This document shows, in pieces, positions 33,906 to 53,851 of a stretch of DNA of 64,000 bases; the stretch's first letter is position 1, and each line of letters begins with the position of its first letter. The stretch is taken from positions 931,063-995,062 of the forward strand of contig CAMXCT020004001.1 of NCBI GenBank assembly GCA_947184155.2, read 5' to 3'. Under the pieces are notes generated by a model that ran no database searches, had not been told where the DNA came from, and saw only the letters and a list, made by a program, of their open reading frames with translations. Source of the stretch: Cladocopium goreaui (lineage: Eukaryota > Sar > Dinophyceae > Suessiales > Symbiodiniaceae). The position numbers and the translations under genes were made by a program.

Positions 33906-34720
33906 AGTAAGAAAATGTATAAATGTCATGGTTGGGATCACACGAAGTAAAGTAATTGAAGTTTTTTTCACCGGAACGAGGTGCTTCATTGAATCCTCCC
34001 TGATATGTGTCCCAAGATAGGGAGCACCCTCAACATGGAATTTGTGTGGGCAAAACAACCGTCAAGACCAGGGCGCGCTATTCTTCAATCAAATACAGCA
34101 AAGCTGTGTACCAAGCAATCTCTGCGGTCGATGTAGATACTTTTTGCCATCCATTAAATTTAAGATGGAGTCGTTACCAAAACCCAGTTTGCAAGATCAC
34201 ATCCTGTTTGCAGAGATGATATTCTGTATGTTCCATGTTCAACTCGGTAGTCGGTAACTCTTATTTAGCAAGGTCTTGATAGGTGATTTTCGATGGACCC
34301 ATGCCCCTTGGATGGTGAACTCAATTGAAACAATCCATTGATACATTCATTGCATACAGTGGGTCAAACGAGGCTTCAAATCTGTGAGTTTCCATATGTT
34401 TCAGTGGTTCATCCAATTACAAGCTAGCACCACCGCAGCTATAAGTTGGTTTCTTTTATACCCACTTAAGTACTTAGACATAGAGTACCTACCATAAACC
34501 CATATAAATCACAGTTATGTACAGTTATGTGACTTTTCAAACCAACTTGGCAACCAGGCGCACAACCAGTCCCGCAGAAACTTTGAGGCTCCAGCTCCTC
34601 ATGCCGGTGATCTACGTGACGGCCGTGGAAATCAAAGTCTTGAAACAGAACAACCCGTTGGGAACTCGGGGAATGGGAAACCGCTAGGAGTTAGAGTAGC
34701 ACTGTATATTATATATATAT
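33906..34720. other. Non-coding flank of the retrotransposon
   Basis: No exon recognised. It ends in the run ATATATATATAT that forms the insertion site of the copia element. Confidence 0.55.
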
Positions 34721-34752
34721 TGCGAAAGGGAACCAGGTAATACAGCAACTGC

Positions 34753-34767
34753 ACATGCTGAGCATGT
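34753..34767. repeat. 15-bp palindrome in 5' LTR
   Basis: ACATGCT-G-AGCATGT: perfect 7-bp arms around one base. Preserved in the 3' LTR at 53679-53693 although the surrounding bases have changed. Confidence 0.9.
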
Positions 34768-34786
34768 AAACAATTATGCATGGACT

Positions 34787-34805
34787 GCCAATCACTTGGC
34801 TCAAG
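34787..34805 (+). other. Spliced-leader-like motif in 5' LTR
   Basis: GCCAATCACTTGGCTCAAG. The dinoflagellate spliced leader ends GCCATTTTGGCTCAAG (known). This LTR copy shares GCCA and TTGGCTCAAG; the 3' LTR copy (53713-53731) is closer, with TTTGGCTCAAG. The resemblance may be a relic or chance. Confidence 0.4.
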
Positions 34806-34926
34806 TCATGCGCGAGGAAAAAGACCGTTCTCCGAACGCCATGCAGTGACGTTGCCCTGCACTACCAGCACAACCGGTACTACAATCAAAAGGGATAATC
34901 CAGAACAAGGATCAAATTTGTTCACA

Positions 34927-34944
34927 GGTTATCAGCCGTAGGGC
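34927..34944 (+). promoter_or_regulatory. Putative primer-binding site
   Basis: GGTTATCAGCCGTAGGGC follows the LTR directly. It lacks the TGG expected for pairing with a tRNA 3' CCA end. Its complement GGCUGAUAACC looks like a tRNA anticodon arm (loop CUGAUAA between GG and CC). Drosophila copia uses such an internal (half-tRNA) primer, with a site beginning GGTTATG (known). The tRNA identity is inference. Confidence 0.5.
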
Positions 34945-34949
34945 TCACT

Positions 34950-34964
34950 TCTCCCGCCGGGAGA
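34950..34964. repeat. 15-bp palindrome in 5' leader
   Basis: TCTCCCG-C-CGGGAGA, perfect arms, between the primer site and the start codon. The same arms recur at 41388-41402 and, with one mismatch, at 53378-53392. Confidence 0.9.
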
Positions 34965-35045
34965 GTGGTACCTGCGTGCTGGTAGCCGGGCCGTCTGAGC
35001 AATTGATTGAGGACGCAAAGGACCAATCGGCTCATCATCGCAAAG

Positions 35046-38000
35046 ATGCAAGGCGGCAGCGGAGATTCGCGCACCACGCAGTTTACCTTCAATGAGAACG
35101 CTGCTATGCCGGTCGAGGAGGTCAATCAATCTTCCCCTGGCGACACGGCAGACAGTGGCGGGATACGCTCTACCCGAACTACACAGTCCGGATGGCAAGT
35201 CACATCAAACAGACGAAGAATATCCACCCAAAGTACACCTAGATCTTCTCGAAACAGTGCTCGGAGTGATGTTGTCCGCCAAGGGCATCGACCATCTCGA
35301 GGACGTACTACTCCAAGGGACAGATCCACCAGGGCCGTGACCGACCGAATTGGTGAGAGGACCGGGGATAGTCGTGTTAAGAGGAGATCAACGGATACTT
35401 CTGTGGCTAGTGAACCTATTGCCATGATAGAAGAACTACGGGCACAATGTCAATCCCTACGTAATCAGCTGAACAACATGGAAGCATACGCTGCATCCAG
35501 GGATCAACTGATTCATGACATCGAGATCAGGTTCACTGAGTATCTTCGGGAACACAATCAGAATGTATTTGATGAGGTCAATGCACTCAATCATAGATTG
35601 TCATGTTCCGCAAATGAGGTTGCAGAATATCAAGCAGAACTAATGGTAGCATCTCAGGAAGATGAAGGTGCAACAATCCGCATCCAAGACCTTGAACGCC
35701 GAGGTGCCCTAATGGAACATGGTGCACGACGGATCCATCAACGTGGTATGGAGATCCAGGAGGAGTACAAGGATGAAGTACATCACCTTCAAGGACTACT
35801 GGGTAATACGGAGGCAAGACTACAACAACTTCATCAAACCAATGTCTTAACCACCGATATTGCCAATCGACTATACAATGAAGGTCAAGAAATGCAAAAT
35901 GATTTCCAGAACTCAATCATGGAATATCGTAATCGATCTGAAATGGCATCCTCCTCTAGTAATCAACTTGAAGTGATTAGCCAGCAACAATCAATTGCAG
36001 TTCATGAATTATCTGAGCGAAATCAGCTATTGAGTGAAGCCTTGGTTCAGTCTCGTAAACAGGCCGAGCTGTATGAGAGCAGTATTGATGAGATCACTAG
36101 AGAGTCTAGGAAGAAGGTGTTCGAGGCAAATCAGGCCAAATTGGAAAGTGATCTGAAGCATCGAAACACTGAACATGATACCGTCAAAAGAATTGCATCA
36201 TACAGGAACCAAGAGGCCGAAGCAATATCTCACCTGAGGCTTGAATCACAGGCTAGTGCAAACTCGATCGCAAGGGCAGAGCACTATGAAGAGCTCTATG
36301 CCAACGAGCAGAAGATGAACTGCGAATTGAAGGATGAGATCAAGTTGCAGAACACGAAGTTACGAAGATCATTGACTCAGGGTTCTACGACCGACGGTCG
36401 TGGCCCCGAAGAGATGCTTGTTGAAGATCTACGTAATCAAGCTAAGATCGCTCAAATCAGGGTTCAGGATCTAGATCATGAAGTTCATGAATGCTTACAA
36501 GAGAACTTGTTGTTAAAAGAAAGGTTGGCTGAAGTTGCGGATGTAGGGGCGTCGTCCCTCACCAATGCTGAGGTCCGAACTCTAAGATCTGAACTAGAGA
36601 GTGAGCGAAAATTAAAATTGGCGAGTGGTGTTCAACAATATGAGAGATCATGCATGTTCATGGGGGAAATCCAGGATAGGGATGAAAAGATTGGCATCAA
36701 GAATTCTGAGATTGTTGACATGAAACGTCACTTAGATGAACTGAGAAAGAGTCTCAAGGATTCTGAAACATCTATGGCTAGGATCAGTCCTGACACACTT
36801 CCCTATTCGGCAGGCATTCCCAACTCCGATCTCGCATCCAGACTGGTCATCGACAAACTGGAGAATGACGTGAGTGAGGCTAACTGTGAAAACGCTATTC
36901 TGAAATCTTGGGTTTCGCAGATCGACAAGGAGTTGACTTATGAGACAAATGTGGCTCATTCCTATCGTGGGCATGCTTTACCTCCTCAACAACCACAGCA
37001 TTCTCAATCAAGCAAAAGAATCGCTGATCTACTGAAAGAGGTTGACAACAAGATCGCTGGCGGAACTGAGAGGGAATACTACAAGCCACCGAGTGGATGG
37101 GGCGGTCCGCCTGACCCTGATGGACCTCCGGACCCTTTCGGGCCTAACGGTCCAGGACCACCTCCTGAACCTCCTGGTTTGCCATCGGTTCGAGGATCAC
37201 AACGCGATTCAGCAGATGATGTCTCCACAGCGGCTTACACTGCGGAAGAAGTACCAAGAATGTCAAGACGAGAGGCTGACAAAGTCTATGTTAGCCCATG
37301 GCCAAAGCAACAGAATCTTGGGGTTTGGCAATCAGATCTCATCAAGAGTGTTGTCCTTTCGGCAAACGACGGGGATAAAGCCGCATGGGAGGCATGGCTA
37401 CAGCCGGCTATTCGACCTAATCCTGACATCGAGCTGTTGAATGACAGTGGGGGGCAACGGTATCAGTCCATCGACGCCAAGTTGTCAATCGCATTGTCAA
37501 ACGTGATAGCCCAAGCCGGTGATGTTGCCCGTCATGTAGCGATCAAATTGAGATTGAGAACACAAAGTCATAGCCGAAGAGGAACCTATGTCATGGGACG
37601 GGAAATCTTGGCTTTGATTCTGGAGCACTTCAGAACCCCAGGTCAACGAGAAACATCCTTCACCATGGAGCACATCGTATCGATGAAGTATCTCGGTGAC
37701 TCGAACCTAGAAGTGTTCTACGAGAAATGGATGGAGATGGTATCAAACATGATGCCGGATGACGTACCTCCTGATGATTGGCTTCGTGACGCTCTATACA
37801 AGAAGATTCGAAATTCGAGTCTTATGATGTTTGACATCAAGCAGTACGAGTCATGGATGGAAGGAGACCAAAGACGAAATTATCGCTACCTGTTGGATGT
37901 CATCGAAAGGCACATCTCCAGAATCAGAGAGGACAAGCATGTGGCAGCCAGAGAGAAGTATGCGAGAGACTTTGCAGGCGGCGGCAAACCTTCAGCTCCT

Positions 38001-41000
38001 GCTCCGAACCCAACTGCTGCTGCACCGGATGCAAATCCAAAAGCAAAGCCTAAAGCTACTCCCAAGGAGAAGGCAGCGCCCAAGGCGAAGGCCAAGGCCG
38101 ATGCAGCTCCAGTTCTACCATCACCTCAACCTAAACAGCATGCAAAAGGAAAAGGAAAAGGTCAAGGGAAAGGGAAGGATCGATCAAACGGCCGAAGTAC
38201 CAGCCCCAGATCCAAGAAGAAGATCCCATGCCATTTCCATTTCATCAAGAAAGCATGCAGAAAAGGCAAGGATTGTGAATACAGTCACGACCAAAAGGTA
38301 TTTGATGCGAACAAGAATGCAAAAGGCAACGGTCGGAAGCCAGGAACTCCAAGAAGTCAGTCTCCGGCAAACAAGACCAAGAAGATTGATGAACCATGCT
38401 GGCATTGGGCTAAGGGCAAGTGTCGGTATGGAGACAAATGCAACAAACGCCACGATCCTCATCTATTCAACACTGCTCCAAACACTGAAGCACCAAGCTC
38501 AAAGGCTACTCCTGCACTTATCCATGATTGGAGTGATGATGAAGGGACGTTCCATAAGGTTGCATCGAACGTGATCAAGAAGAAGATCAGATTTGATGAG
38601 TCTAAAACTCAAGTTCAAACTTACGTGAAGAAGGACTTCGTGAAGTGCAGCCGGAAATCCCAAACCATCCCCAAAGGTCATGGTAAAGTTGGCAAGCCCA
38701 CTGATCAGATAAGGAAAGATGAGCAATGGTCTTATTCATGCAGGTTAGCTTCGAGCCGAGGGAAAGCAATGGCTATTCTGATCGATGAGAAGGGTGAACA
38801 CAGTGACATTGATGAAGTCCTGGTCATAGTCGGCCCTAGCATGGACATCCTGATCAGACTCGACGTCGAGGACGGTGAGGTGTCCAGGGAAGTATTTGTG
38901 GAAAACTATGTTCAGCATATTGAAGGTCGATATGGTAAAAGGGGCAACACAATGTGTATCACTGTTCCTGTTGAAGAGAGAGATAAGAGATTCATATTGG
39001 ATTCTGGAAGTGGCCATGATCTCATTTCATCCACACGGATAAGTAGAATGGATCTCCCAACATACGATGACAAGGTCGTCAACTTCCATACAGCAAATGG
39101 GGTAACGTGTTCGACCAAACGTTCAAGCATCAAGTTCGAGGCATTTAGCGAACCAGCAGAAGCTCACATCTTGGAGGACACACCCTCTGTGCTCTCCATG
39201 GGAAAGCGATGCGTTGATCTTGGTTACTCTTTTGTATGGCCGACCGGAAGAACTCCATTCATGTTGGATCCAAATGGCAACTTCATCGAGATGACTGTTA
39301 AAGACTATATTCCCTATGTGAGCGTCGATCAAGAAAAGATCAAGTTGAAATCATCTTGTGTGGAGAAGATCATGGCAATTCTTGATGATGGATGCTCAAC
39401 ATCGGAAGGTGAAGGTCTTTTGGTCATAGATGGAGAAAGTGGGGATGAACTTGAAGATCTTTCCGACTCCGTTGGACGATCCAATGTTAAATCACCCAAG
39501 AGATCGATGAAGAAACGTAAGAAAGCTAAGGTAAGAGATGATCAACATGAAGTGGCTGTTGGAAGTGATGCAGACGATGCTGAGGAAATGTCATGCTATG
39601 CTGACGAGTATGCCGAGTTTGAGGACGACGGATACGATCCCAGCATCGCACCTGATGACATCCATGAAGATCATCCAATTGAAGTTGAAGAAATTCCTGA
39701 AGATGGAGGAGGTGAAGACGACGATGATGTCATTGATGTTGATGAGGAAGATGGAGGAGTCCGATTGAGTAAGAGGGGAACTTTGAAGAATGAAGCGCGA
39801 TCGAAGGTTCACCTTCTAACTCATCGCTATAAGAACCCTTACTGTGAGTCTTGCGTGCGTGCCAAGATGAAGCACAGGAAAACGTTCAGAGGTGCATTTC
39901 AACGTAAGCTCACGAAGTTTGGGGACCTGATCACATTCGACTACGTTGACAACCGTCGTATTGCTGAACAGGACTATGGCGACGACAAGACCATCTTTGT
40001 CATCAGGGATAGATATACAGGAATGCTTCAGTCTTATCCTTCTGCCAGAAAGGACACAGACGCCGTTATACGGGCGGTAAAACAGTTCATGGGCCGTCGT
40101 AAGATTCGAGAAGCATATTCCGATGACGCCCCACAGTTCGACAAGGCAATGAAGATCCTAAAGATCCCAATGGATACTTCCTTGGCCGGAAAGACCAAGC
40201 ACAACTCGCTTGCAGAGAGAACTAACCAATTCGTGCTCGTGGCAACAACAACCTGTCTACTTGAGGCGGGAATTCCACCATGCTTTTGGATGTATGCCAT
40301 CAGATGCGTGAGCCATTTGCTCAACATCGAGCCCAACGACGATGAGGTAAGTTCTTGGTGCAAACTTCATGGAGAAGAATTCAAAGGGAAGATGATACCC
40401 TTTGGTGCCCTCGTGTACTTCAAGCCCAGTGGTTCACGTGAACGAGAACAACAACACAAGTTTGACCCTATGGGAATCCCTGGAGTGTTCGCTGGATACT
40501 CCATTGGCCCCGGGCTGCATTGGTCGAGGAAGTACAGGGTATGGGCACTATGTGATTGGAGCAAGCAGAACTTGGCTTATGATGCGGAGAAGCCCATCGC
40601 AAAGCTGAGGACTCCACACTATACCGAAAGGGTCGAGCTAAAGGAACCCCTTGAATTCCCATGCAAGTTAGAGTATGAAAGGGTCAATGTTTCCATTGAA
40701 GGATTGAAAGTGAAAGATCGTCTTGAAGGAAATCCAGAAATTCTACCGCCACCTCCACCGGATGATGATGATGATGGTGGGGATGATGACGATGGTCATG
40801 GTGGTGGTGGTGTACCTTCGTCGAAGGTCCCACGGGAACCAACTGATGGAGAGTTGGAAGCTGAAAGGCACTTTGATGCAATATCGGAAAGATTGGGACC
40901 ACCAGGTATCGATAAGCCAGCACATCCAGATCTTCATATTCCAGAAGGAGGACCTGAACATTACTCCGTTGGAAAGGGTGGAGATGGGGTCGTATACCTG

Positions 41001-44000
41001 AATGACGATGGTGAATGGGTGAAACTCAATGCTCGCGGCCATCCATATCGTATTGATGAACGTGGTTTTCGCAGAATATCAACTACTCCAAGGCCTTCAA
41101 AGTATACCCCTGACGAGTGGAGAAAGATGTCACCGACTGTCAGAAAAGGGATTGCCAAGGCCGAAGAGAAGAAGGTCGAAGCTGAGAAGGAGAAGAAGAA
41201 AAGTGATGCGAAAATCAAGGAAAGTGAGGAGCGAGCAAAGAGAAAAGAAGAAAAGAAGAAAGAGAAAGAAGTAAAGAAAGCCAAATCCTCCAAGAAAGAC
41301 GACAAAGACGATCACGTTTCAGGAGTGGCCATGTCCCAAGACTACATCCGAAGAGGCAAAGTTTTTCAATATGGAAAAGGGTCCGTTTCTCCCGTCGGGA
41401 GAGGGGTCTCTGCCTCTGCTCCATGTTATTCAGACCTGTCGGACACTGACGTACCGGATGATGATGACTTCTTGATGGAGTGGGATGAATGGTCTGAGAT
41501 CGAGAAGGGCAAGGGACCGAGAGCCACTTGGAACAACGACAAAGTGTATGACTTCAACCAGGGGAAGGTGGTGGCTGCTGCGACATTCCACAACACCAAC
41601 GAAGTACCCCAAGACGCTCGTGGCCTCAGTGATGTTTTCCTTCCATTTCCATGCATGCCATGCATTAATCATTGTGATGATCATCGAGAAAAGCTGATTT
41701 CAAATGGTGATGGAATCAATATCAATAAGATGTTCAACACTGCAGTGGCAAGACCTGTTGGTCGGAAGGAAATGATGGAAAACGACGATGCACGTAAAGC
41801 TATGAGGAAGGAATGGTTGGGTCAACATGCTGCTGGAGTCTACGATTTCAGTGTCGTTAGAGAATATGATGACGTTGTTCGTGAAGCAAAGGCAAACAAG
41901 ACAGAGGTTCACATGGCCAGAGTACATGGTATCTGTGTTGAGAAAAACTATCAGTTGCCTGCAGGAAGTCCCAGTAGAAAATTCAAAGGCCGAGGTGTCT
42001 TGCTTGGTAACCAGGTGAAGAACCAATTCTGGGAGGCTGCCTTCTTCCAGGACTTGGGCAATTCTCCAGCTACTTTTGAGGCATCGAGATGGGCTGATTT
42101 CTATGGGTGTCTTCCAGGCCATAATGTAAAACTTGCCGACGCCATTCAGGCATACATTCAAGCAAAACTAACCGGACCACCATGTTGGGTTGAGCTACCT
42201 GAAGATGCATGGCCAGACGATGTCGATATTCGAAAGTTCCGTAGACCAGTTGTAAGATTGGTTAAAGCTTTGTATGGTCACCCCGATTCGGGAACAATGT
42301 GGGAACAACACTGTGATCAGAAAGTTCGTGAACTCGACTTCGTTCCTGTTGGAGAAGAATGGCCCTCAATGTATTTTCACAAGAAACTGAAGTTACTTCT
42401 TGTCATCTATGTAGACGACTTAAAGCTGGCAGGACCGGAAGAGAACCTGACTAAGGGTTGGGAGATGCTTCGATCAAAACTCAACATCGAGCCCGAGACT
42501 GACTTAGGACTCTACCTCGGTTGTATTTTGAGAAAGGGATCTACCAAACTTCATGATGGAACCCCGGTTTCAACTATGACCTACGACATGGAAGGATTGT
42601 TGAAGCTGTCAGTTGAGAAGTACTTGGACATTGTTGGTAAAGATACGAAGTTGAAACAAGTATCTACTCCAAGGCTACCTGAAGAAACAAAGAAACACAA
42701 GTCTAGAGCACCATGTCCCGGGAACCCCAAGAACAAGAAGGTATGTCCATGGTGTACTCATGAATTTGATCCGGACGCTCCATTGTTTTATGAACAAGGA
42801 ACCCAAGGGGAAGACGTCTCGCCTGGGGAGTCTGAGAGAGGTGCATTAGCGCCACACGCTGCTAGCGTGTTGATGAAGCTGCTGTACGCGGCGAGGATTG
42901 CTCGTTTTGATCTGCTTCGTTCCATTAATTCCCTGGCCAGGAATGTAACAAAGTGGACCATTGATGACGATGCAAAGTTGTATCACTTAATGTGCTACGT
43001 GAATTCCAGCCTATCTAAAAGAATGACCGGATGGGTTGGGGACAACTTCAATGAATTGACATTGTCTTTATTTGCTGATGCTGATTTTGCAGGGTGTGCC
43101 CAGTCTTTGAAATCAACTTCAGGGTCTCATATGCATATCCAGGGTAACCACACTCGGTTTCCTTTGTCCGGGGGCAGCAAACGGCAAGGATGCGTAAGCC
43201 ATTCGACGCCTGAGGCCGAAATCGTTGCAGCCGATGTCACCCTCCGTACTATGGGCTTGCCCGCAATGAGCATCTGGGAAACGCTGACGGGAAAGTCGCC
43301 CAAATTATTGTTTCATGATGACAATCAGGGCATGATCGGTGTAGTCAGGTCGGGTCGTAACCCCACTATGCGGCATCTTGAGAGGACCCATGGCATAGCC
43401 ATCACTTCCCTCCATGAACATTTTACTCGGGAAAACTACGTACTCATGTATGAGGTGACCTCGAAAATGGCCGCTGACATTCACACCAAAGGTTTCAAGA
43501 ATCCGTTAGCATGGAAAAGAGCATGTATGCTCATCAACCTGTTGGACCCTGGTGACATCGGTACGAAAGATCTGCTCGATATGGTCTCACCTACCACGGA
43601 TGTTGATACCACTGTCCGACAAGTGTTTCAAACCAAAACTCAAGATGTTCCAAATTTTCCGTATACCGAAATACCTATTCTACCACCTGAGGTGTATCAG
43701 AAGGGTCTTTCTGGTAAAGAACAAGTACAACAACTACCTGGTATGGATCCCATATTGGTTGTTAAGACGCCAACTTTCTTTAGAAAGCGACCACCTGGTG
43801 TATCATTGCCTCATGATTGTTTGAGAAGTACCTGGGTACTATCTCATGGCAAATGGATCAAGGTTGAGGATCGAGTTCCACCCGTTCAACAACAAGACCG
43901 TTTTGATCAATGGGTAGAACGAGCTTGTTTCCAATACCATCCGTGTCAATTTAGTATATCACCGTCGGTGATTACTAGGCAATCAGCTGGTGTTGTCTCA

Positions 44001-47000: not shown

Positions 47001-50000
47001 GACGACCTATGGGAGTTGGGGGGCTACAACATTGAGAGGGCCGACCAGGGCATGTTTGAAGAGGTGGAGAAACGGAACAGGACATTTTCCTGTATCCGCG
47101 ACTATGTGACGACCACTGCCACCACACAGATGGGCCAAGGAGCCACAGAGGTCTCCCACATTGATGGCTGGGACATCCCGCTGATGCCGAGAGACGGCAG
47201 AAACCCTCCAAGTCAACCGGATCATCCAGGTTGGGATCCTTCACCTATCAGAATGATGAATGACAAGCAACAGAGGGAAGCCGATGCACAGCGGGCACAA
47301 CAGCAACAACAACAGACTGGGCCTAGTAGTTCCACCGCCGGTGGACACGATGGTTACAGCTCTGCAGCTGGGAGTGCACCACCACCAAAAGCTCCACCAT
47401 CGAAGGCAAGGCCATCTACTCCTCCTGCAAGAAAGGACTGGGTGATTCCTCGGGTACCGAATGGATATCTTTTCAGAACTTCATCAATGCCCGATCAAAG
47501 GAACTCCGAGTTCATCACCTCAGCATGGATGGACGAGCATAATCACTTTCTTCTATCAATCGTCCAAGGCCCAGCAGCTCAAGCTGCCAGCACTTCAGGT
47601 TCAGCACCTTGGGCACAATACTTGAGGAGAGTGACCGCATATGCTTGCATGGTCTTCGGAATCTGCAACCCGGCAGTCGTGACGGAGGACACCGCGTCTA
47701 CCATCTCCGAGAAAGACTGGTTGAGGTGCTACAGCCACGTTGTTCGCAAGTACATGCTGACGCGGACAGGGTGCTATCTGTCGACTGCAGGAATGCTCAT
47801 GATGCTAGGGCATCACGACGTGAACGTTGCCAACCAATCTGACCTTGGCCGCATCAAGAAGATGATTACCAACCCACTTGCTTGCAGGATCATCGATGCA
47901 CCAAGCGGTCCAAGAGATCATGACATGTTGGCAGGTGATTTCAGGGCTGGAACAACCATCCTCATCACCGACCTGATGTTCCGCGTGGGGACCCAAAGTG
48001 GGACGCATGGCATCCAAATGGGATTAGCTGACATGGGATGGGAAAGTGTCGAGGTGTTTAAGATCCATGATTCTGAAGCAGAACGACCCCTTCAGCAATT
48101 CCTCGATACCCTTGACAAAGTCAAGCAGTACCTCAGCACGGATACCGTCGACGATGGTTTGATAACTGTGCACCTTTGGTTGTCATTGCAGTTCCTACAC
48201 GCACAAAAACCACCTCATTGTGTCATGCTTGAAAACGACTTCAAGAATCAGTTTGTCAAAGGGGTTCTCGATCTTGATCAAGTTACATCCAGACCTCTGA
48301 TGGTCGCCATCAACAATGACTCCATGTTCAACGGAGTGGACTCTGTTACGTCCAGGATCGCAGAGGAGCTGATTGAGAAGATGAGGCTCCAAGGGATCTT
48401 GGTAACATCGGATCAGAGGATGTGGCGGTCAATGTACTCGCAATTCGGAAAACAGTATTCGATTTTGAGTACAACCAAGAAGGGGACTTTGGGAAAGACG
48501 GCAATTTGGTCTGTCATCGAGAAGAATCTATTTCGCCAAAGGGTCTTCCTCATGTGTGCCACGAATAGGGAACATGTATCAGTTCTCAATGAGGGAGCGC
48601 TCAAACCTGACGAATCGGGCATCATCGCCAAAGTTCTGGAGGATATGACCGGACCAACTGAGGCGTTCAAGATCGCAGGTGGCGAAATGACCCCTGGTGA
48701 CTATGCAAATGACGACACCACAATCTTCCAGCGAGGCCCTGGAACCGCCGTGAACAGATTCACCAAAGACAAAAGGTTCAAGACCAGTTGGGTCGAACCG
48801 GTGGTCGGCACCCATGAGCTGGAACCAGTGGTTTCCGATCGGTGCATGTGGTTCACCATTGACAAGGAGAACGAAGACATCCTGTGCGGAAGCTGTAGAG
48901 GCGCAGAGACGATGGATGAGGTCGAGACGTGCCAGTCGAGACCAACCCATTGCATTAATTGCTCCGCCAACACCCAGGACCATTACAAGCGTTCATCCCC
49001 AACATTGGAGGCCAGGAAGTCCGTACTACTCCTTGCAGCTAGGTTGAAGGTCGCATTCGAGGATCTTGGTGTTGACATTGTTGACATCAATCAAGGATTC
49101 CAAACATGGCTCACATTTACTGCGTCTTCGTTGATTTCAAATGCATCGTTGGCGTATGGGGAGCACTTGATGAAATCTCTATCTCACATGGGAGGAGTCA
49201 GAATTTCGAAGAGGCAAGCTCTGGAAATTTTCCGGAACGGACGCGGCAAGCAATTCAGCATATATCGAGAAAGAGTTTTCGATGATGTTGCAAAGAAGTG
49301 GCTTTTGATCTATAGAGTCACAAAGGATTGCGGAAATGTCGCATACAAAGACTTCTTCGAGAAGGTTGCCGTTCCCGAGGTGAAGGAGAGGAACGAGATT
49401 TTTGGATTCTCCCGTGCATCTGCCGAGAAAACTGGAGATATCATCGAGTTCTGGCTTGGTGTCTTGGACGTGGCCAATATGGCCAAGGGAGTCGTAGATG
49501 TTTTCAATGCTAGTGTTGATCCAGCTGAGTATCTCAATGGATTGGAAAAGGCACTGGCTCAATTTACATCGACCTCCCGAACCTCGAGCACCATCAATGA
49601 CAAGAGACGGGGATCCTTCGACTGCACACTGCAAACTGCAGAAGCCGAAAGGGTCATGAAGCTCATCCACGCAATCCCCGGATATGATTCGCTGGCCAAT
49701 TTCTGCTGTCTCACGGACTGGGAGAAGGATCAGGTATTCTCTCATTATCGCAGGAAGAACAACATCACAGGGGGTGACGCCAGCATGGGCACTGATGCCG
49801 ATGCCAAGCCAGGTGACGAGTCGTCGGCTCACCCTGGGGAGGAGGAAGCTGATGAGCCAGCGAACGACCCCACCGATGTGGTCAGGGACTCAGAGAATTC
49901 CGGGAAACAACAACTTTTGGATGCGTTGGGAAAACTCTTCACCGTCTCTGAGGATGTCAACGTGTGCTTGTATTGTGGTAGCACCCAACATGGCCATCTT

Positions 50001-52847
50001 GAATGTGAACATGAGAAGAGAGATGAAGTCAGAAAAGTGCTAAAGGCCGTCCGAGCGTCGCTCGAGGCTGATAGTCCAACATCTGATGACGTCGATATGG
50101 AGCCTCCTGAGCACAAGAAGGACGGTTCAGGTGCTACTGATGGGTCGGGGCAAACGGATGAACCCACAAAATCGAGGTTTGGTGAACACCAATGGTACGA
50201 CAGCATCAGAACTATGTCTGAAGTTGGTGACCTCGATGAGTATGGCAGATTCTGCATAGAAGGACGTGATGTTACAAAGCTAGGACCACAGAACATTGTT
50301 GACCTCAACGAGGTGGTCAGAGACGCTATTGTCAGAGGAGGAGGTGACTCTTGGTCAGTGCCAGACTTTATGGCAAGCTACTCTGATAACAACATCAGGA
50401 AGCCCTTCTACAAGAGAGTCGAGGCGCCGCAAGATGGTTTCTTGAAAATCATCCCGACCACGGGGGCCCATTTCTTCAACTGCTCTTACTTTGGCGGTGT
50501 AGAATATGCGGCCAACTACCGATTCGAGACTGGCAACCGACTCAATACCTACGAGGACAAGGTGGGTACATCACTAAACAGAATCCTGCGGCACAACGTG
50601 GGGAAGGTATCAGAACAACAGAGTCTGTCATGTGATGACGCCGGCTGGGTGCCCATCGAGGAGGTGCTCAAATGTGAGTCCATCTGGAGGCACGAGTACG
50701 CACGCTGGCCACATGTATTCCTTGCCCCAAAAGGAAGAGCAAATGATCAGAGTGCATGGAATGTCGATGAGGCAAACTACCGCATGACGTTGCTCTTCAA
50801 GATCATGTTCCACTGTGCCCGGTATGGACGTCGTGTTCGTGAACAAGTCTTGGCATTTGGTATCAACAAGGACATCGAGCGCACCAGCCTGACGTGCATT
50901 GACAACAAAATCGATGCGAACACGAACATTCCTGATGAAGGTCTACTGCTCTACCCTGTGGCGGTCCGTGCTCCTACGGGGCACAAGGAAGGATCTTCAA
51001 GGGACGACGTCTCATTGCTGTCCTCATTACTTTCACATCCAATCGCGCCCAACACCATTTTGTCATTACCGGTTTGTTTCCACATCACCAAGAAGACCAA
51101 CCTCCGAAGCATTTGGAGGCAGGGATTAATTCCAGGAGGTCTTGGAGAAGGTCATCGGATGTTCACGTTCTTCAACCCGTATGTGCCATGGGATCACAGA
51201 TCATGGACTATCACGAAGAGCGTTGATACGCGAAAGGGGGACTACATTTGCTTGTTCATCCCGACCGAGACCTTGATGGTGGAATATGGCGGTCGACTGA
51301 CCGACTCGGGACAGATCGTCTCACCAAAGATCATCCCGTTCTCGGCAATCAAAGGAGGATGGATTCAGGACCCAAAAGACCAAAACAATAAGACATGGCT
51401 CCGGTTGTTCGTCCCGTCGGGCGACGACCAGGTAGTTCGGTCTGGAACTGTCAAATCAAGAACGGTAGCCACCAAGGAGTCCATCTTGAGGGTTGCAAGT
51501 CAATGCATCGACGCCGAAGATCAACCGTTTGACGAAACCGCCATGGATGCCATGAACATCGTCAACCAATTCAAGAACGACCTCATCAAGCCTGGCGGAC
51601 AAGAACAATACCTGGCCCGCATCAAGCTGATTGACTACATAGTCGAACGCAAAAGGGTGCAAACATCAGGTTGCCGCCATTGTCCTCACTGTCTCAATGA
51701 GACGCCGACAAAACTAGCAGTGTGTCTAGTTTGCTGGACGGAACTTGAAAGTTGTGGAATCCGTCCCTATCGGCTACAAGCTCCTGAAGACGATGAAGAT
51801 GAGGCCACGAAGAAAGAGATCGATGAAGAGGTTCGACGACAAGAAGAATCGTTGTTCAAGGATACGGTCCATCAAGCACAAGAAAACGTATCCGAATCAA
51901 ACGACTATGGCTTCAATCCCGACGAGGTCGATTACAACGAAGGCGATGATGAAGAAATGGATCAGGAGGAGGAAGCCCAACAGGAAGACGACGAAATCGT
52001 TGAAGAAGACGAAGATGAAATGGAAGTCGAACCTGAAGATGAATCCTCTTCCAAACTTCCAGCATGGACCAAGAACCTCGAGAGCGGCAGCAAGGGTATG
52101 CCAGAAGACGGACTTATCAACAATGATGTCTCCGAGGCCGCGGCTCACTTGTATGACAATGCTGTCATGTCAAAGGTCATCACAATGTTCAGGCTCTACT
52201 ACAAACAGAGAGTCACTCTGACCCCAGAGGAGTACTATGAGATGATGACGGAAACCAAGCGAGTCCGGCTGGACCTGGACGACTTCTGTCCTTATACAGG
52301 AGAAGACCAGGATGGCAACCTCAAGCGACCGACGGAGCTGGAATTGGATGAACTCTTTCAGCAGAAAGGGAAGAGGAATTCATGGTCAGAAGGAGAGAAG
52401 TTATACTCAGGGCGACCCAGAAACATGATGATGCCTGTCATCAAGACTTTGGAAATCTATGAGAAGATGATGGAATTTCTGGTACGTGCTGGGTACACTC
52501 CTGAGTCATTAGGCTTTCTCATGCCAATGAACCGAATGCAGGCTGATGCCCAAGGGAAACATGAGATGCGAGTAACCATCAGCAATTTCCTTCGACGACT
52601 GCTCAAAGGAACCTTTCCGGAGCACGAGTCATACACCTTCTTTCGCTCCGGGAGCCACGGCTTCCCCAACTGCATCGAACTCCCAGCTTTCTCGGTATAT
52701 CTGAGCCTGAGGGAGAAAGAACAGAGAGTAGAACTGCTCTTGCAGCCCAACAATGTGGCATTCCTTTACCTCAAAACTTTGTCAGCAAGATGGCTTATGC
52801 TATTCAGCTGGCCGAGGCCGAGGCGCAGAGGGGAAAGACCGAGATGA
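35046..52847 (+). CDS. Copia Gag-Pol polyprotein with about 3,100-residue C-terminal extension (5,933 aa)
   Basis: One uninterrupted frame. I take the ATG at 35046; the frame is open back to a TTG at 35007. Order: coiled coil (about 125-635), Pro-rich linker (680-715), Gag-like helical domain (750-975), two CCCH zinc fingers (from C1062 and C1118), protease (D1319-SGSG), compact HHCC finger (H1589, H1593, C1600, C1603), integrase (D1632, D1693, E1724), RT (D2365; YVDD 2455-2458), RNase H (D2678, E2723, D2759; ends near 2830). The extension holds a 24-residue tandem duplication (3589-3636), a helical region from M3644, a Gln-rich linker (near 4086), a Cys cluster (4614-4639), a CX2CX4HX4C knuckle (4974-4987), a KptA/Tpt1-like domain (about 5180-5445; LRH 5181-5183, H5346), CX2CX2C (from 5543) and an acidic tract near 5630. 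The last 20 residues look like out-of-frame reading of the next ORF. Confidence 0.93.
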   Translation: MQGGSGDSRTTQFTFNENAAMPVEEVNQSSPGDTADSGGIRSTRTTQSGWQVTSNRRRISTQSTPRSSRNSARSDVVRQGHRPSRGRTTPRDRSTRAVTDRIGERTGDSRVKRRSTDTSVASEPIAMIEELRAQCQSLRNQLNNMEAYAASRDQLIHDIEIRFTEYLREHNQNVFDEVNALNHRLSCSANEVAEYQAELMVASQEDEGATIRIQDLERRGALMEHGARRIHQRGMEIQEEYKDEVHHLQGLLGNTEARLQQLHQTNVLTTDIANRLYNEGQEMQNDFQNSIMEYRNRSEMASSSSNQLEVISQQQSIAVHELSERNQLLSEALVQSRKQAELYESSIDEITRESRKKVFEANQAKLESDLKHRNTEHDTVKRIASYRNQEAEAISHLRLESQASANSIARAEHYEELYANEQKMNCELKDEIKLQNTKLRRSLTQGSTTDGRGPEEMLVEDLRNQAKIAQIRVQDLDHEVHECLQENLLLKERLAEVADVGASSLTNAEVRTLRSELESERKLKLASGVQQYERSCMFMGEIQDRDEKIGIKNSEIVDMKRHLDELRKSLKDSETSMARISPDTLPYSAGIPNSDLASRLVIDKLENDVSEANCENAILKSWVSQIDKELTYETNVAHSYRGHALPPQQPQHSQSSKRIADLLKEVDNKIAGGTEREYYKPPSGWGGPPDPDGPPDPFGPNGPGPPPEPPGLPSVRGSQRDSADDVSTAAYTAEEVPRMSRREADKVYVSPWPKQQNLGVWQSDLIKSVVLSANDGDKAAWEAWLQPAIRPNPDIELLNDSGGQRYQSIDAKLSIALSNVIAQAGDVARHVAIKLRLRTQSHSRRGTYVMGREILALILEHFRTPGQRETSFTMEHIVSMKYLGDSNLEVFYEKWMEMVSNMMPDDVPPDDWLRDALYKKIRNSSLMMFDIKQYESWMEGDQRRNYRYLLDVIERHISRIREDKHVAAREKYARDFAGGGKPSAPAPNPTAAAPDANPKAKPKATPKEKAAPKAKAKADAAPVLPSPQPKQHAKGKGKGQGKGKDRSNGRSTSPRSKKKIPCHFHFIKKACRKGKDCEYSHDQKVFDANKNAKGNGRKPGTPRSQSPANKTKKIDEPCWHWAKGKCRYGDKCNKRHDPHLFNTAPNTEAPSSKATPALIHDWSDDEGTFHKVASNVIKKKIRFDESKTQVQTYVKKDFVKCSRKSQTIPKGHGKVGKPTDQIRKDEQWSYSCRLASSRGKAMAILIDEKGEHSDIDEVLVIVGPSMDILIRLDVEDGEVSREVFVENYVQHIEGRYGKRGNTMCITVPVEERDKRFILDSGSGHDLISSTRISRMDLPTYDDKVVNFHTANGVTCSTKRSSIKFEAFSEPAEAHILEDTPSVLSMGKRCVDLGYSFVWPTGRTPFMLDPNGNFIEMTVKDYIPYVSVDQEKIKLKSSCVEKIMAILDDGCSTSEGEGLLVIDGESGDELEDLSDSVGRSNVKSPKRSMKKRKKAKVRDDQHEVAVGSDADDAEEMSCYADEYAEFEDDGYDPSIAPDDIHEDHPIEVEEIPEDGGGEDDDDVIDVDEEDGGVRLSKRGTLKNEARSKVHLLTHRYKNPYCESCVRAKMKHRKTFRGAFQRKLTKFGDLITFDYVDNRRIAEQDYGDDKTIFVIRDRYTGMLQSYPSARKDTDAVIRAVKQFMGRRKIREAYSDDAPQFDKAMKILKIPMDTSLAGKTKHNSLAERTNQFVLVATTTCLLEAGIPPCFWMYAIRCVSHLLNIEPNDDEVSSWCKLHGEEFKGKMIPFGALVYFKPSGSREREQQHKFDPMGIPGVFAGYSIGPGLHWSRKYRVWALCDWSKQNLAYDAEKPIAKLRTPHYTERVELKEPLEFPCKLEYERVNVSIEGLKVKDRLEGNPEILPPPPPDDDDDGGDDDDGHGGGGVPSSKVPREPTDGELEAERHFDAISERLGPPGIDKPAHPDLHIPEGGPEHYSVGKGGDGVVYLNDDGEWVKLNARGHPYRIDERGFRRISTTPRPSKYTPDEWRKMSPTVRKGIAKAEEKKVEAEKEKKKSDAKIKESEERAKRKEEKKKEKEVKKAKSSKKDDKDDHVSGVAMSQDYIRRGKVFQYGKGSVSPVGRGVSASAPCYSDLSDTDVPDDDDFLMEWDEWSEIEKGKGPRATWNNDKVYDFNQGKVVAAATFHNTNEVPQDARGLSDVFLPFPCMPCINHCDDHREKLISNGDGININKMFNTAVARPVGRKEMMENDDARKAMRKEWLGQHAAGVYDFSVVREYDDVVREAKANKTEVHMARVHGICVEKNYQLPAGSPSRKFKGRGVLLGNQVKNQFWEAAFFQDLGNSPATFEASRWADFYGCLPGHNVKLADAIQAYIQAKLTGPPCWVELPEDAWPDDVDIRKFRRPVVRLVKALYGHPDSGTMWEQHCDQKVRELDFVPVGEEWPSMYFHKKLKLLLVIYVDDLKLAGPEENLTKGWEMLRSKLNIEPETDLGLYLGCILRKGSTKLHDGTPVSTMTYDMEGLLKLSVEKYLDIVGKDTKLKQVSTPRLPEETKKHKSRAPCPGNPKNKKVCPWCTHEFDPDAPLFYEQGTQGEDVSPGESERGALAPHAASVLMKLLYAARIARFDLLRSINSLARNVTKWTIDDDAKLYHLMCYVNSSLSKRMTGWVGDNFNELTLSLFADADFAGCAQSLKSTSGSHMHIQGNHTRFPLSGGSKRQGCVSHSTPEAEIVAADVTLRTMGLPAMSIWETLTGKSPKLLFHDDNQGMIGVVRSGRNPTMRHLERTHGIAITSLHEHFTRENYVLMYEVTSKMAADIHTKGFKNPLAWKRACMLINLLDPGDIGTKDLLDMVSPTTDVDTTVRQVFQTKTQDVPNFPYTEIPILPPEVYQKGLSGKEQVQQLPGMDPILVVKTPTFFRKRPPGVSLPHDCLRSTWVLSHGKWIKVEDRVPPVQQQDRFDQWVERACFQYHPCQFSISPSVITRQSAGVVSPGHLASTARQGLHAAAVPTRQTHVLKYPQLTVGVGQLFCHQSHGNEPTTIHAAPCGTARVINTLLRVVHGGSSGWGSLPMGFPPTGDPDDDPYPTENKDPNRQRIVFAGGDVIAGRVSKDKAYNPSTSSRKGKKISKNERDQDEWIWKDETTLMRVHKIPRRKMFTPKEADFLPCKLRRFRDERETNQVFQSSGRLIHDSWRLVGNNIEKTNKRNEFWTGTTTFKIISNADIKDVMDSGSDVEDRASCQDTVVTCILDGNMKIIPLDDMFIAHHYKLKHETRKQNDWDIQMNLHRKNGKILTYHFKQSYADFLGKILNDVTISLNVYEMKDDTPCLLLMCAETQSIITKIHKQSRFKMMHVVTITEDDNLMSNYGRAKWRRCIRGPSDCVFFAGPCTGGSPWNRLNKNVSEVTAHNIRMKALLYWELWEEFTLCLQRVHVLHAMALLELPRGCDYWNDERMKFLINGTQSTVHDFDGCMYGLKSQFKDVGTAIKKPWRIVSWGVEFFDLHVKCDGSHTHGQCAGRETRATQLYTEKIVRAILRGVTNQMLINNVYGKRFRPKVMEEEDYYKSKSCACVIINDYECNTNVKTINEQLFINFITQRGGVKVKLRLYPRRGSILADPDPVRGGLKVKSGCYLRRWCALTDPDSAYLSSVFAMAGTDLVIPSAAKGISLLKSTLSLIQEKKQEHNLPAPFSTYEEANFRGYKDKDLDEWLDRVKISPPVVVALAFVMDRSGRAFVTHAIRLLMKMLSKVTNENELKMSAISFIDKGARLSKLVEGAARNPDEKSIMQMLCTFECAIRIDELWDTLKDHYTGQNSMINKEITVRDLRDKIANTSPANLGSLNQTYPPYGSPCYQIRKRTNFEEIARRKWEKWSFEVMRREEPEPYEVENRIQYLVNIMYEESYSLGYALRRHNARATSSQGKTIIVQNVLEDWMSMSYDLSLERTAAVVHLQTILMISKMLHEWMTKLENFKSMSYLSGIIKTDLVRMKQAIDLRDDLWELGGYNIERADQGMFEEVEKRNRTFSCIRDYVTTTATTQMGQGATEVSHIDGWDIPLMPRDGRNPPSQPDHPGWDPSPIRMMNDKQQREADAQRAQQQQQQTGPSSSTAGGHDGYSSAAGSAPPPKAPPSKARPSTPPARKDWVIPRVPNGYLFRTSSMPDQRNSEFITSAWMDEHNHFLLSIVQGPAAQAASTSGSAPWAQYLRRVTAYACMVFGICNPAVVTEDTASTISEKDWLRCYSHVVRKYMLTRTGCYLSTAGMLMMLGHHDVNVANQSDLGRIKKMITNPLACRIIDAPSGPRDHDMLAGDFRAGTTILITDLMFRVGTQSGTHGIQMGLADMGWESVEVFKIHDSEAERPLQQFLDTLDKVKQYLSTDTVDDGLITVHLWLSLQFLHAQKPPHCVMLENDFKNQFVKGVLDLDQVTSRPLMVAINNDSMFNGVDSVTSRIAEELIEKMRLQGILVTSDQRMWRSMYSQFGKQYSILSTTKKGTLGKTAIWSVIEKNLFRQRVFLMCATNREHVSVLNEGALKPDESGIIAKVLEDMTGPTEAFKIAGGEMTPGDYANDDTTIFQRGPGTAVNRFTKDKRFKTSWVEPVVGTHELEPVVSDRCMWFTIDKENEDILCGSCRGAETMDEVETCQSRPTHCINCSANTQDHYKRSSPTLEARKSVLLLAARLKVAFEDLGVDIVDINQGFQTWLTFTASSLISNASLAYGEHLMKSLSHMGGVRISKRQALEIFRNGRGKQFSIYRERVFDDVAKKWLLIYRVTKDCGNVAYKDFFEKVAVPEVKERNEIFGFSRASAEKTGDIIEFWLGVLDVANMAKGVVDVFNASVDPAEYLNGLEKALAQFTSTSRTSSTINDKRRGSFDCTLQTAEAERVMKLIHAIPGYDSLANFCCLTDWEKDQVFSHYRRKNNITGGDASMGTDADAKPGDESSAHPGEEEADEPANDPTDVVRDSENSGKQQLLDALGKLFTVSEDVNVCLYCGSTQHGHLECEHEKRDEVRKVLKAVRASLEADSPTSDDVDMEPPEHKKDGSGATDGSGQTDEPTKSRFGEHQWYDSIRTMSEVGDLDEYGRFCIEGRDVTKLGPQNIVDLNEVVRDAIVRGGGDSWSVPDFMASYSDNNIRKPFYKRVEAPQDGFLKIIPTTGAHFFNCSYFGGVEYAANYRFETGNRLNTYEDKVGTSLNRILRHNVGKVSEQQSLSCDDAGWVPIEEVLKCESIWRHEYARWPHVFLAPKGRANDQSAWNVDEANYRMTLLFKIMFHCARYGRRVREQVLAFGINKDIERTSLTCIDNKIDANTNIPDEGLLLYPVAVRAPTGHKEGSSRDDVSLLSSLLSHPIAPNTILSLPVCFHITKKTNLRSIWRQGLIPGGLGEGHRMFTFFNPYVPWDHRSWTITKSVDTRKGDYICLFIPTETLMVEYGGRLTDSGQIVSPKIIPFSAIKGGWIQDPKDQNNKTWLRLFVPSGDDQVVRSGTVKSRTVATKESILRVASQCIDAEDQPFDETAMDAMNIVNQFKNDLIKPGGQEQYLARIKLIDYIVERKRVQTSGCRHCPHCLNETPTKLAVCLVCWTELESCGIRPYRLQAPEDDEDEATKKEIDEEVRRQEESLFKDTVHQAQENVSESNDYGFNPDEVDYNEGDDEEMDQEEEAQQEDDEIVEEDEDEMEVEPEDESSSKLPAWTKNLESGSKGMPEDGLINNDVSEAAAHLYDNAVMSKVITMFRLYYKQRVTLTPEEYYEMMTETKRVRLDLDDFCPYTGEDQDGNLKRPTELELDELFQQKGKRNSWSEGEKLYSGRPRNMMMPVIKTLEIYEKMMEFLVRAGYTPESLGFLMPMNRMQADAQGKHEMRVTISNFLRRLLKGTFPEHESYTFFRSGSHGFPNCIELPAFSVYLSLREKEQRVELLLQPNNVAFLYLKTLSARWLMLFSWPRPRRRGERPR
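41388..41402. repeat. 15-bp palindrome inside pol coding sequence
   Basis: TCTCCCG-T-CGGGAGA, identical arms to the leader copy at 34950, encoding SPVGR in the linker between integrase and RT. Confidence 0.85.
43958..43972. repeat. 15-bp palindrome after RNase H
   Basis: ATCACCG-T-CGGTGAT, perfect arms with the shared CCG-N-CGG core. A weaker relative, TGTCTC-ACC-GGGACA, follows at 43994-44008. Confidence 0.8.
45810..45953 (+). repeat. 72-bp in-frame tandem duplication in the polyprotein
   Basis: Two adjacent 24-codon units, RGGVKVKLRLYPRRGSILAD+PDPV and RGGLKVKSGCYLRRWCALTD+PDSA. They are diverged but share RGG-KVK, RR and DPD. The next in-frame ATG (45975, M3644) follows within 25 bp. Confidence 0.85.
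50574..51371 (+). other. KptA/Tpt1-like RNA 2'-phosphotransferase domain within polyprotein
   Basis: The N-part LNRILRHNVG...DDAGWVPIEEVLK matches the winged-helix half of Tpt1/KptA (L-x-x-x-L-R-H ... G-W-V-x-x-x-x-L-L), including the Arg-His pair. The C-part VCFHITKKTNLRSIWRQGLI matches the H-x-T...I...G-L motif of the ADP-ribosyltransferase-like half. Known Tpt1 enzymes remove the splice-junction 2'-phosphate from ligated tRNA using NAD+. The segment after GLI is diverged, so activity is uncertain. Confidence 0.72.
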
Positions 52848-53152
52848 AAGCGAAGATGGCTCCAACTCTTGGCGACGAAGTGGTAAGTGAAGTATTCAAA
52901 GCGGTTGGACATACTGCAGCTTCCAAGTTTGCTAAACCAACTGCGCAACCTTCACAGACACCTGAAGGCACTGGTTCAGCATCATCCTCATCGGCTAGTG
53001 CACCAAAGGGCAAGGCTATGCCGAAATCCCATGAACCATCAAAGGCACCGCCTGCAAAGCCTTCATCGCCGAAAGCTGCTCCGAAACGTGCGGCAGGATG
53101 GGAGAGAACTCCAACAGCACCTCAATGGAAGAAAGTCCGCCGTGAGCAGTAA
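52790..53152 (+). CDS. Small overlapping ORF in -1 frame (120 aa)
   Basis: Overlaps the end of the polyprotein frame by 58 bp in the -1 frame. It starts MAYAIQLAEAEAQRGKTEMK and continues with an Ala/Ser/Pro/Lys-rich tail ending KKVRREQ. Its first residues look like a normal helix, whereas the polyprotein frame over the same bases is Arg/Trp/Pro-rich. It is therefore probably the true C-terminus of the polyprotein, reached by frameshifting or lost through a one-base indel. I see no classical slippery heptamer. No family recognised. Confidence 0.55.
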   Translation: MAYAIQLAEAEAQRGKTEMKAKMAPTLGDEVVSEVFKAVGHTAASKFAKPTAQPSQTPEGTGSASSSSASAPKGKAMPKSHEPSKAPPAKPSSPKAAPKRAAGWERTPTAPQWKKVRREQ

Positions 53153-53377
53153 ACCAATTACTTCGATCCGTCAAAATGATCACTGGGCTACAAGATGTTT
53201 ACCGTCTTTGTGAACAGATGATCAGGAAAAGACCAACTGAGTGGACACTGAGCGAGGCATTAGACTAATTCGCTTAGGTTCAAGAATTTTGATATTCCCA
53301 ATCTGCACGAGATTCTGCATTGTGCACGTGAATTCGTTAGTTAGCATTGTAAATCTTTGGTAGCGAGGCGATCCATT

Positions 53378-53392
53378 TCTCCCGACGGGTGA
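53378..53392. repeat. 15-bp palindrome in 3' UTR (one mismatch)
   Basis: TCTCCCG-A-CGGGTGA; same left arm as the copies at 34950 and 41388. The right neighbour GTGGCATG resembles the GTGGTACC that follows the leader copy. Confidence 0.75.
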
Positions 53393-53508
53393 GTGGCATG
53401 CTTAGCCAACGTAGAAAAGTAGATGTTAGCTAGCAATAATTCGCGTTGTATAGCTTGAGGATGCGCCGATGCATCGACAGCCAAAGAGTAGGTGAACCCT
53501 GAACCATT

Positions 53509-53523
53509 ATACCCGACGGGTAT
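53509..53523. repeat. 15-bp palindrome in 3' UTR
   Basis: ATACCCG-A-CGGGTAT, perfect 7-bp arms, again followed by GTGGGG. Confidence 0.85.
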
Positions 53524-53611
53524 GTGGGGAAGGGGGATCCGAATGGCACGTTTTATGTACATAGGCGTAATTCGAGCAGCAGAAGGATTTAATTCAAAGT
53601 TCCCACTCTCG

Positions 53612-53639
53612 TGCCTACGGTTCGAAGATGCCGTAGGCA
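53612..53639. promoter_or_regulatory. Stem-loop next to the polypurine tract
   Basis: TGCCTACGG and CCGTAGGCA form a perfect 9-bp stem with a 10-nt loop. It ends one base before the purine tract. Likely a structural element for plus-strand priming or RNA 3' processing (inference). Confidence 0.7.
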
Positions 53640-53646
53640 TGGGGGG
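53640..53646 (+). promoter_or_regulatory. Polypurine tract
   Basis: GGGGGG directly before the TG of the 3' LTR, the expected position for plus-strand priming. Confidence 0.8.
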
Positions 53647-53851
53647 TGCGAAAGGGAACTAGGTAATACAATCATTTCACATGCTGAGCATGTAGTCAGT
53701 GATGCATGGACTGCCAATCATTTGGCTCAAGTCATGCGCGAGGAAAAAGACCGTTCTCCGAACGCCATGCAGTGACGTTGCCCTGCACTACCAGCACAAC
53801 CGGTACTACAATCAAAAGGGATAATCCAGAACAAGGATCAATTTGTTCACA
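53647..53851 (+). repeat. 3' LTR of the copia element
   Basis: 205 bp; TGCGAAAGGG to TTGTTCACA. Identical to the 5' LTR over its last 128 bp apart from a one-base indel. Includes the palindrome at 53679-53693 and the motif ATTTGGCTCAAG (53720-53731). Confidence 0.95.
53679..53693. repeat. 15-bp palindrome in 3' LTR
   Basis: ACATGCT-G-AGCATGT, same as in the 5' LTR. Confidence 0.9.

Follow-up and report, generated by a model that had tools for sequence, protein, structure and literature searches.

A recently active giant Ty1/Copia retrotransposon family in a dinoflagellate with a polyprotein extension under purifying selection

Introduction

A Copia retrotransposon usually encodes a polyprotein of about 1,400 residues. 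From the dinoflagellate Symbiodinium, heat-activated Ty1/Copia elements are known (as cited in PMC11453091). Giant single polyproteins with extra domains occur in Burro, a group of planarian Gypsy-like giants whose polyproteins are reported at 4,873 and 5,140 aa (PMC6431247). Cytosine methyltransferases are described in the retrotransposons SymbioLINE-Dnmt, SymbioDIRS-Dnmt3 and KnitGypsy-Dnmt3, of which two come from a dinoflagellate, and the same source states that Symbiodinium Copia is devoid of any DNMT domain (PMC5890265). The RNA 2'-phosphotransferase Tpt1/KptA is known in a few RNA-virus polyproteins (PMC9503650); in the open-access literature, we found no earlier account of this domain in retrotransposons.

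Here, we analysed a stretch of 64,000 nucleotides from Cladocopium goreaui (the window), which harbours one copy of a giant Ty1/Copia element that is multicopy, sits at independent insertion sites and has been recently active.

Results

Layout and state of the window copy

Both LTRs included, the whole element spans about 19 kb (34721..53851) and is organised as follows:

34721..34926, + strand, 5' LTR with TG...CA ends
34927..34948, + strand, primer-binding-site-like sequence adjoining the 5' LTR, common to the copies in which the LTR end was inspected
35046..52847, + strand, open frame of the window copy, 5,933 codons counted from the first ATG
52688..53149, + strand, C-terminal coding sequence, shifted to another frame in the window copy (match to the C-termini of other copies)
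53636..53646, + strand, polypurine tract ggcatgggggg directly 5' of the 3' LTR
53647..53851, + strand, 3' LTR (comparison of the LTR pair)

A preliminary description of this locus had reported LTRs of about 205 bp and a polyprotein of 5,933 residues. Both figures hold: the LTRs lie at 34721-34926 and 53647-53851 and are 94.2% identical over 206 columns, and 5,933 codons follow the first ATG, which is codon 14 (35046) of a stop-to-stop frame of 5,946 aa (35007-52847, + strand). The length of this frame is real, but its final ~34-52 residues are out of the coding register: when three other copies served as queries, each with its last 320 residues, the coding sequence changed frame at 52688-52742. 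The window copy is a slightly damaged member of a giant Copia family. At gathering scores, Rfam detected no RNA family within the 64-kb window. As a candidate primer we considered a half-tRNA from the anticodon arm of tRNA-Ile(GAU), deduced from the putative primer site, and rejected it: the exact predicted pattern had no match in the genome, and a looser arm pattern gave 18 matches versus 6 in the reversed control, none of which was judged by eye to be a tRNA.

Gag-Pol core and assignment to Copia

The N-terminal half of the frame contains the Gag-Pol core:

38229..38453, + strand, pair of CCCH zinc fingers at the border of gag and pol (profile match and motif reading)
39000..39026, + strand, aspartic protease motif DSGSGHDLI (E 0.0033, under the Pfam cut-off)
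39774..40706, + strand, integrase region, HHCC and D-D-E read by eye (SH3_retrovirus E 0.12)
41727..43511, + strand, reverse transcriptase (RT; YVDD at 42408-42419) and RNase H (RVT_2; borders by eye)

RVT_2 is the best family at residues 2412-2507 (E 4.5e-7), where its 30.1 bits stay below the cut-off of 31.6, and all relatives P0002-P0006 have a precomputed RVT_2 assignment. The integrase lies upstream of the RT in one polyprotein, which corresponds to the Copia order as read by eye. With an RVT_2 score below its cut-off and a domain order read by eye, the element is still filed as Ty1/Copia. With the RNase H border set by eye at about residue 2835, roughly 3,100 residues lie beyond it, in agreement with the preliminary description.

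Copy number and recent spread

Elsewhere in this genome, 14 loci contain open frames of 6,048-6,068 codons, and nine of them measure exactly 6,048 codons. Ten further copies, selected for an open frame, were fetched from ten other contigs; both fetched pieces were uninterrupted in all ten, and their flanks share no similarity with one another. In five of the ten, the two LTRs are 100% identical, therefore the family has moved recently. The window copy and seven of the fetched copies have a TG...CA LTR pair, and no full pair was found in the other three. Among the eight readable pairs, a 5-bp target duplication is exact in five (three of these in repetitive flanks); four of five bases agree in the window copy, and the sites are unreadable in 3 of the 11 copies.

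Conservation of the extension

Downstream of RNase H, the following modules were recognised:

45003..45665, + strand, C5-methyltransferase-like module, residues 3333-3553, motifs PCTGGS / ELP / KKPW (fold and motif comparison)
46077..47336, + strand, mostly helical module (residues 3691-4110), for which no named relative was found
47931..48557, + strand, SGNH-hydrolase-like alpha/beta fold, residues 4309-4517 (fold comparison)
48927..49886, + strand, module C (residues ~4641-4960), likewise with no match to a named relative
49965..50006, + strand, putative CCHC zinc knuckle CLYCGSTQHGHLEC (motif reading)
50559..51416, + strand, predicted Tpt1/KptA RNA 2'-phosphotransferase domain, residues ~5185-5470 (Pfam 5185-5377; far end from the alignment of relatives)
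51672..51734, + strand, CxxC...CxxC zinc-ribbon-like motif (motif reading)

Pooled NG86 estimates of dN/dS (55 non-independent pairs from the window copy and the ten copies chosen for open frames) amount to 0.04-0.13 in the extension modules and 0.02 in RT-RNase H; constraint is weaker just after RNase H (0.18) and in the linker 3561-3690 (0.46). Moreover, 99% of the extension can be aligned with relatives, at identities of 74% and 27%. Because of this low dN/dS and the alignment with divergent relatives, we conclude that most of the extension, with its ~3,100 residues, is under purifying selection. The preliminary description had inferred such selection from the open frame, which by itself indicates recent insertion only; its conclusion is nevertheless supported by the data given here.

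The extension belongs to the family and is not the cargo of a single copy. A near-fixed distance between RT and extension was found in 90 of 150 RT matches, based on the best 150 of 2,549 and the best 150 of 841 candidates, and the other 60 are not to be counted as extension-free. Many related Copia proteins also contain the methyltransferase-like module, and some of them stop just after it, although these are contig predictions that frameshifts may have shortened in part. Copies lacking the extension had been named as evidence against its maintenance; such shorter proteins do exist, but they represent other, more divergent families. The view of the tail as a peculiarity of this element holds for the long region beyond the module, which distinguishes the giant relatives, but not for the module of ~220 residues itself, which is shared with shorter Copia proteins.

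Enzyme-like modules

The Tpt1/KptA assignment is based on PF01885, which reached 28.8 bits on the segment alone (cut-off 26) and 21.9 bits, under the cut-off, within a long query. NCBIfam equivalog cut-offs were not reached by the window segment (14.6 versus 231 bits) nor by L029 and L030, and a search of the window segment against the PDB returned no chain at E <= 10. The Arg-His pair, presumably the catalytic pair, is found in the window copy and in five of six aligned Tpt1 sequences; L030 lacks the His, and the related giant protein P0006 lacks the whole domain. Two other retroelement families of the same genome, one of them apparently not Copia, also contain the domain. At the level of sequence, these data show that the extension carries a predicted Tpt1/KptA-family domain.

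For residues 3333-3553, our data support a small candidate C5-methyltransferase-like fold that has a Cys and a Glu of the catalytic type. These residues, Cys3394 and Glu3446, do not vary among the 50 related segments, and the comparison with HhaI, made at the level of the whole fold, aligned 185 of its 327 residues. In Foldseek searches against the PDB, no C5 enzyme was among the top 50 matches, and nothing usable was obtained for residues 3140-4110. Sequence comparisons with C5 enzymes were negative in nearly all approaches: the module found no relevant Pfam or PDB entry, PF00145 matched none of 12 module members, and hhalign against C5 enzymes was not significant. Of 120 shuffles, 20 reached the score obtained against 84 C5 enzymes, as did the reversed profile, and hhalign with the single P087 sequence was out of register at Prob 0.3%. 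A score above the shuffles was obtained only with six small phage enzymes, which were picked after the fold match. Within its ~220 residues no target-recognition domain was recognised, and viral contigs scanned with the Copia module pattern gave no match. As judged from its sequence, the module is not counted as a PF00145 family member. The SGNH-like fold, in which no GDS-type catalytic serine was recognised, is a weaker candidate than the methyltransferase-like one.

Discussion

As the best explanation of the whole, we propose with moderate confidence a giant Copia element whose selected extension would process nucleic acids of the element itself. The extension would be cut out of the polyprotein and travel inside the virus-like particle, where its parts could act on these nucleic acids. 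The Tpt1-like part may remove 2'-phosphates at RNA ends or nicks in an NAD+-using reaction, with genomic RNA or a cleaved tRNA primer as possible substrates, and thereby restore a usable template or primer. Its link to primer processing is speculation, since no tRNA-Ile(GAU) arm was found. The methyltransferase-like part may mark new cDNA or RNA, which could then mimic the methylated DNA of the host or escape attack.

Several other readings have to be weighed against this proposal. An assembly join or a chance open frame has a negligible probability: nothing was found in its favour, and it is contradicted by the ten additional copies, each on a different contig, as well as by database proteins of 4,868, 5,163 and 5,944 aa in which the order is the same. 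Consequently, the earlier argument that a frame of this length cannot be chance is borne out, and the join suspected within 43.5-46 kb is excluded by these copies with their unrelated flanks. The extension might also be a host passenger that was captured once, spread by hitchhiking and is dispensable to the element. Capture of host sequences is known for LTR elements (PMC6431247), but low dN/dS in every extension module and the conservation of the extension over 99% of its length in a relative with 27% identity make this very improbable, and we strongly disfavour it.

More weight, although still a minor share, is given to an env-like or structural/regulatory region that shapes the particle or counters host silencing, with enzyme folds retained as binding-only relics. 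This would fit the long helical stretches and zinc motifs, the unrecognised SGNH serine, the loss of the Tpt1 His in L030 and the absence of the domain from P0006. However, Cys3394 and Glu3446 vary in none of the 50 segments, and five of six aligned Tpt1 sequences keep the Arg-His pair, which exceeds the needs of binding alone. Similarly, it is rather unlikely that module 3333-3553 is a different Rossmann-fold enzyme with convergent Pro-Cys and Glu-Pro motifs; the missing significant sequence match to C5 enzymes speaks for this, whereas the fold and six-phage-enzyme comparisons point to C5 enzymes and to small phage C5 methylases, whose motifs stand in the same order.

Comparison with known systems

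With dinoflagellate Ty1/Copia elements, the giant element shares LTRs, an RVT_2-type RT and, by eye, an integrase before the RT; it differs in its frame, which with 6,048 codons is roughly fourfold longer than usual, and in the added Tpt1-like, methyltransferase-like and further modules. This shows that selection can maintain a polyprotein of ~6,000 residues in a Copia element, which has recently spread it in many copies. Burro resembles it in the giant single polyprotein with extra domains, but is a Gypsy element, is longer (>30 kb with LTRs) and has, as its own features, domains of apoptosis and ubiquitin type and, between gag and pol, a region resembling env (PMC6431247).

The small phage C5 methylases (116 phage records in all; 212 residues in Lactococcus phage P087) agree with the Copia module in length, for the P087 type ~212 aa, in fold and in the motif order PPC / ENP / KKP, which is suggestive of homology; the phage enzymes are free-standing, whereas the Copia module lies within a polyprotein. 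The DNMTs of SymbioLINE-Dnmt, SymbioDIRS-Dnmt3 and KnitGypsy-Dnmt3 were detected by PF00145 (PMC5890265), which does not match the giant Copia module. Since a module of C5-like fold was found in 50 related segments, the statement in that source on Symbiodinium Copia may hold only within the reach of PF00145.

The RNA-virus Tpt1/KptA domains belong to the same domain family and are likewise embedded in polyproteins (PMC9503650). Here the domain occurs in retrotransposons, and in the main text of PMC9503650 the terms 'retrotranspos', 'retroelement' and 'dinoflagellate' have no occurrence. Our data add Tpt1/KptA, as a predicted domain, to the repertoire of retrotransposons. It is a tentative and rather doubtful extension of our data that at least two unrelated retrotransposon orders have their own NAD+-dependent RNA 2'-phosphotransferase, next to a widespread cryptic small C5-type methyltransferase in Copia, and that retrotransposition here would routinely include the repair of RNA ends and the self-methylation of cDNA or RNA. 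The giant Copia family offers two directly testable candidate enzymes, its Tpt1-like and its methyltransferase-like module.

Organisation of the element in the window

The giant Copia element (34721-53851, forward strand) carries an open frame that spans 5,946 codons (35007-52847), or 5,933 codons counted from the first ATG, and is bounded by LTRs of 206 and 205 bp with an identity of 94.2%. In the encoded polyprotein, domains were recognised either by a Pfam search or by eye:

Near residue 1130: CCCH zinc fingers (Pfam)
Near residue 1319: aspartic protease, weak match (Pfam)
Upstream of the reverse transcriptase (RT): integrase (by eye)
Residues 2412-2507: RVT_2 (Pfam)
RNase H (by eye)
About 2,700 residues beyond RVT_2: Tpt1/KptA family (Pfam)

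We infer a dinoflagellate host, because two named relatives are Symbiodinium proteins and the genome comprises 1.17 Gb. Using three other copies as queries, the coding sequence of the window copy was found to switch frame at 52688-52742 and to continue to 53149; this copy is slightly broken and the family is intact.

Besides, tandem arrays with periods of 40 bp and 12 bp lie a short distance upstream of the element (33063-33984), and a 266-codon open frame at 32919-33719 passes through them. An antisense open frame of 236 codons is located within the element (49179-49889, reverse strand).

Copies in the genome and linkage of the extension to the reverse transcriptase

Searching the same genome with two parts of the polyprotein revealed a large set of closely similar copies. 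Residues 4132-4331, which belong to the roughly 3,100-residue extension past RNase H, are matched at 96% identity or more and free of stops at all 150 scored places (the best 150 of 841 candidates), and an RT segment is matched at 100% identity at 128 and at 99% at 22 of its 150 scored places (the best 150 of 2,549 candidates). Taken together, the two match lists contain open frames of 6,048-6,068 codons at no fewer than 14 distinct loci, and at nine of 14 such loci the frame measures exactly 6,048 codons. At least 90 of the best 150 RT matches are followed, in the same orientation and within 3-12 kb, by a match to the SGNH-like module B (residues 4309-4517); among the matches listed, the spacing is exactly 5,466 bp in 50 of these 90.

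Ten copies on ten contigs, drawn from those with open frames, were fetched for closer comparison, and both fetched pieces are open in all ten. A comparison of their flanks found no similarity among them. The LTR pairs are identical in five of these copies and reach 97.6 and 98.5% identity in two more, while a full pair was not found in the remaining three. Of eight readable pairs of flanks, five show an exact 5-bp target duplication, three of these five being situated within repetitive sequence.

The extension has matches in five clusters of the protein database: P0002 with 74% identity and P0004 with 27%, each at a coverage of 99%, and P0003, P0005 and P0006 with partial alignments. A further Ty1/Copia polyprotein, P0104, is labelled in the database as uncultured Marinobacter and is probably a mislabelled eukaryotic sequence.

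Selection on the polyprotein

We calculated dN/dS by the NG86 method, pooled over 55 pairs from 11 copies, for the segments of the Copia core and of the extension.

dN/dS by polyprotein segment (NG86, 55 pairs, 11 copies)
Core, gag: 0.08
Core, CCCH-protease: 0.11
Core, integrase region: 0.05
Core, RT-RNase H: 0.02
Extension, post-RNase H: 0.18
Extension, methyltransferase-like module (3333-3553): 0.10
Extension, linker 3561-3690: 0.46
Extension, module A (mainly helical, 3691-4110): 0.08
Extension, 4111-4225: 0.08
Extension, module B (SGNH-like): 0.07
Extension, module C (about 4641-4960): 0.06
Extension, 5061-5180: 0.05
Extension, Tpt1: 0.13
Extension, 5526-5745: 0.11
Extension, C-terminus: 0.04

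The Tpt1/KptA domain

Searched alone, the Tpt1/KptA segment of the window scores 28.8 bits against a cut-off of 26; it reached none of the NCBIfam equivalog cut-offs, and a search of PDB chains gave no match. In the genome, all 150 scored places for PF01885 (out of 1,496 candidates) lie above the cut-off, a set from which the window's own Tpt1 place is absent. Among the matches listed, three short frames have the highest scores (174-180 bits). A second group scores 92-101 bits and includes several frames of 2,327-2,760 codons. Most matches score about 45-55 bits, and 14 of them lie in frames of 4,020-4,039 codons.

From each of the two long-frame groups one place was fetched. L030 is a Copia polyprotein in which Tpt1, scoring 46.5 bits, is combined with CCCH fingers and the methyltransferase-like module; its match to RVT_2 is weak (E 0.0091). 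The other place, L029, has Tpt1 at 89.1 bits (L029 7405-7926) together with a reverse transcriptase that is non-Copia by eye; its Pfam search named no RT. A comparable combination of RVT_2, methyltransferase-like module and Tpt1 occurs in the database protein P0081, the latter two as Pfam matches just under the cut-off. The Arg-His pair is conserved in five of six aligned Tpt1 sequences and missing from L030. In this genome a great number of long open frames carry Tpt1/KptA, and one of the retroelement families among them is non-Copia by eye.

A Tpt1 domain was not detected in the related giant Copia protein P0006 (5,163 aa), in which the zinc-ribbon-like and C-terminal parts are present by eye; Tpt1 may therefore be gained or lost as one unit. 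Among the papers listed in an open-access library, none is, by title or abstract, on this element or on retrotransposon-borne Tpt1/KptA.

Proposed mechanism and comparison with known systems

The core of the element would run through an ordinary Copia cycle, and the added modules, which their position places within Gag-Pol, would be packaged. KptA removes 2'-phosphates at RNA ends and is contained in a few RNA-virus polyproteins, where its suggested role is the processing of their own RNA ends (PMC9503650). A particle-borne methyltransferase could place marks on cDNA, a role put forward for SymbioDIRS-Dnmt3 (PMC5890265).

Elsewhere in the genome, C5 DNA methylases gave 125 matches in frames of 133-558 codons, many of them in sets of equal score. 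Such equal-score sets would fit the DNMT retroelements described in PMC5890265.
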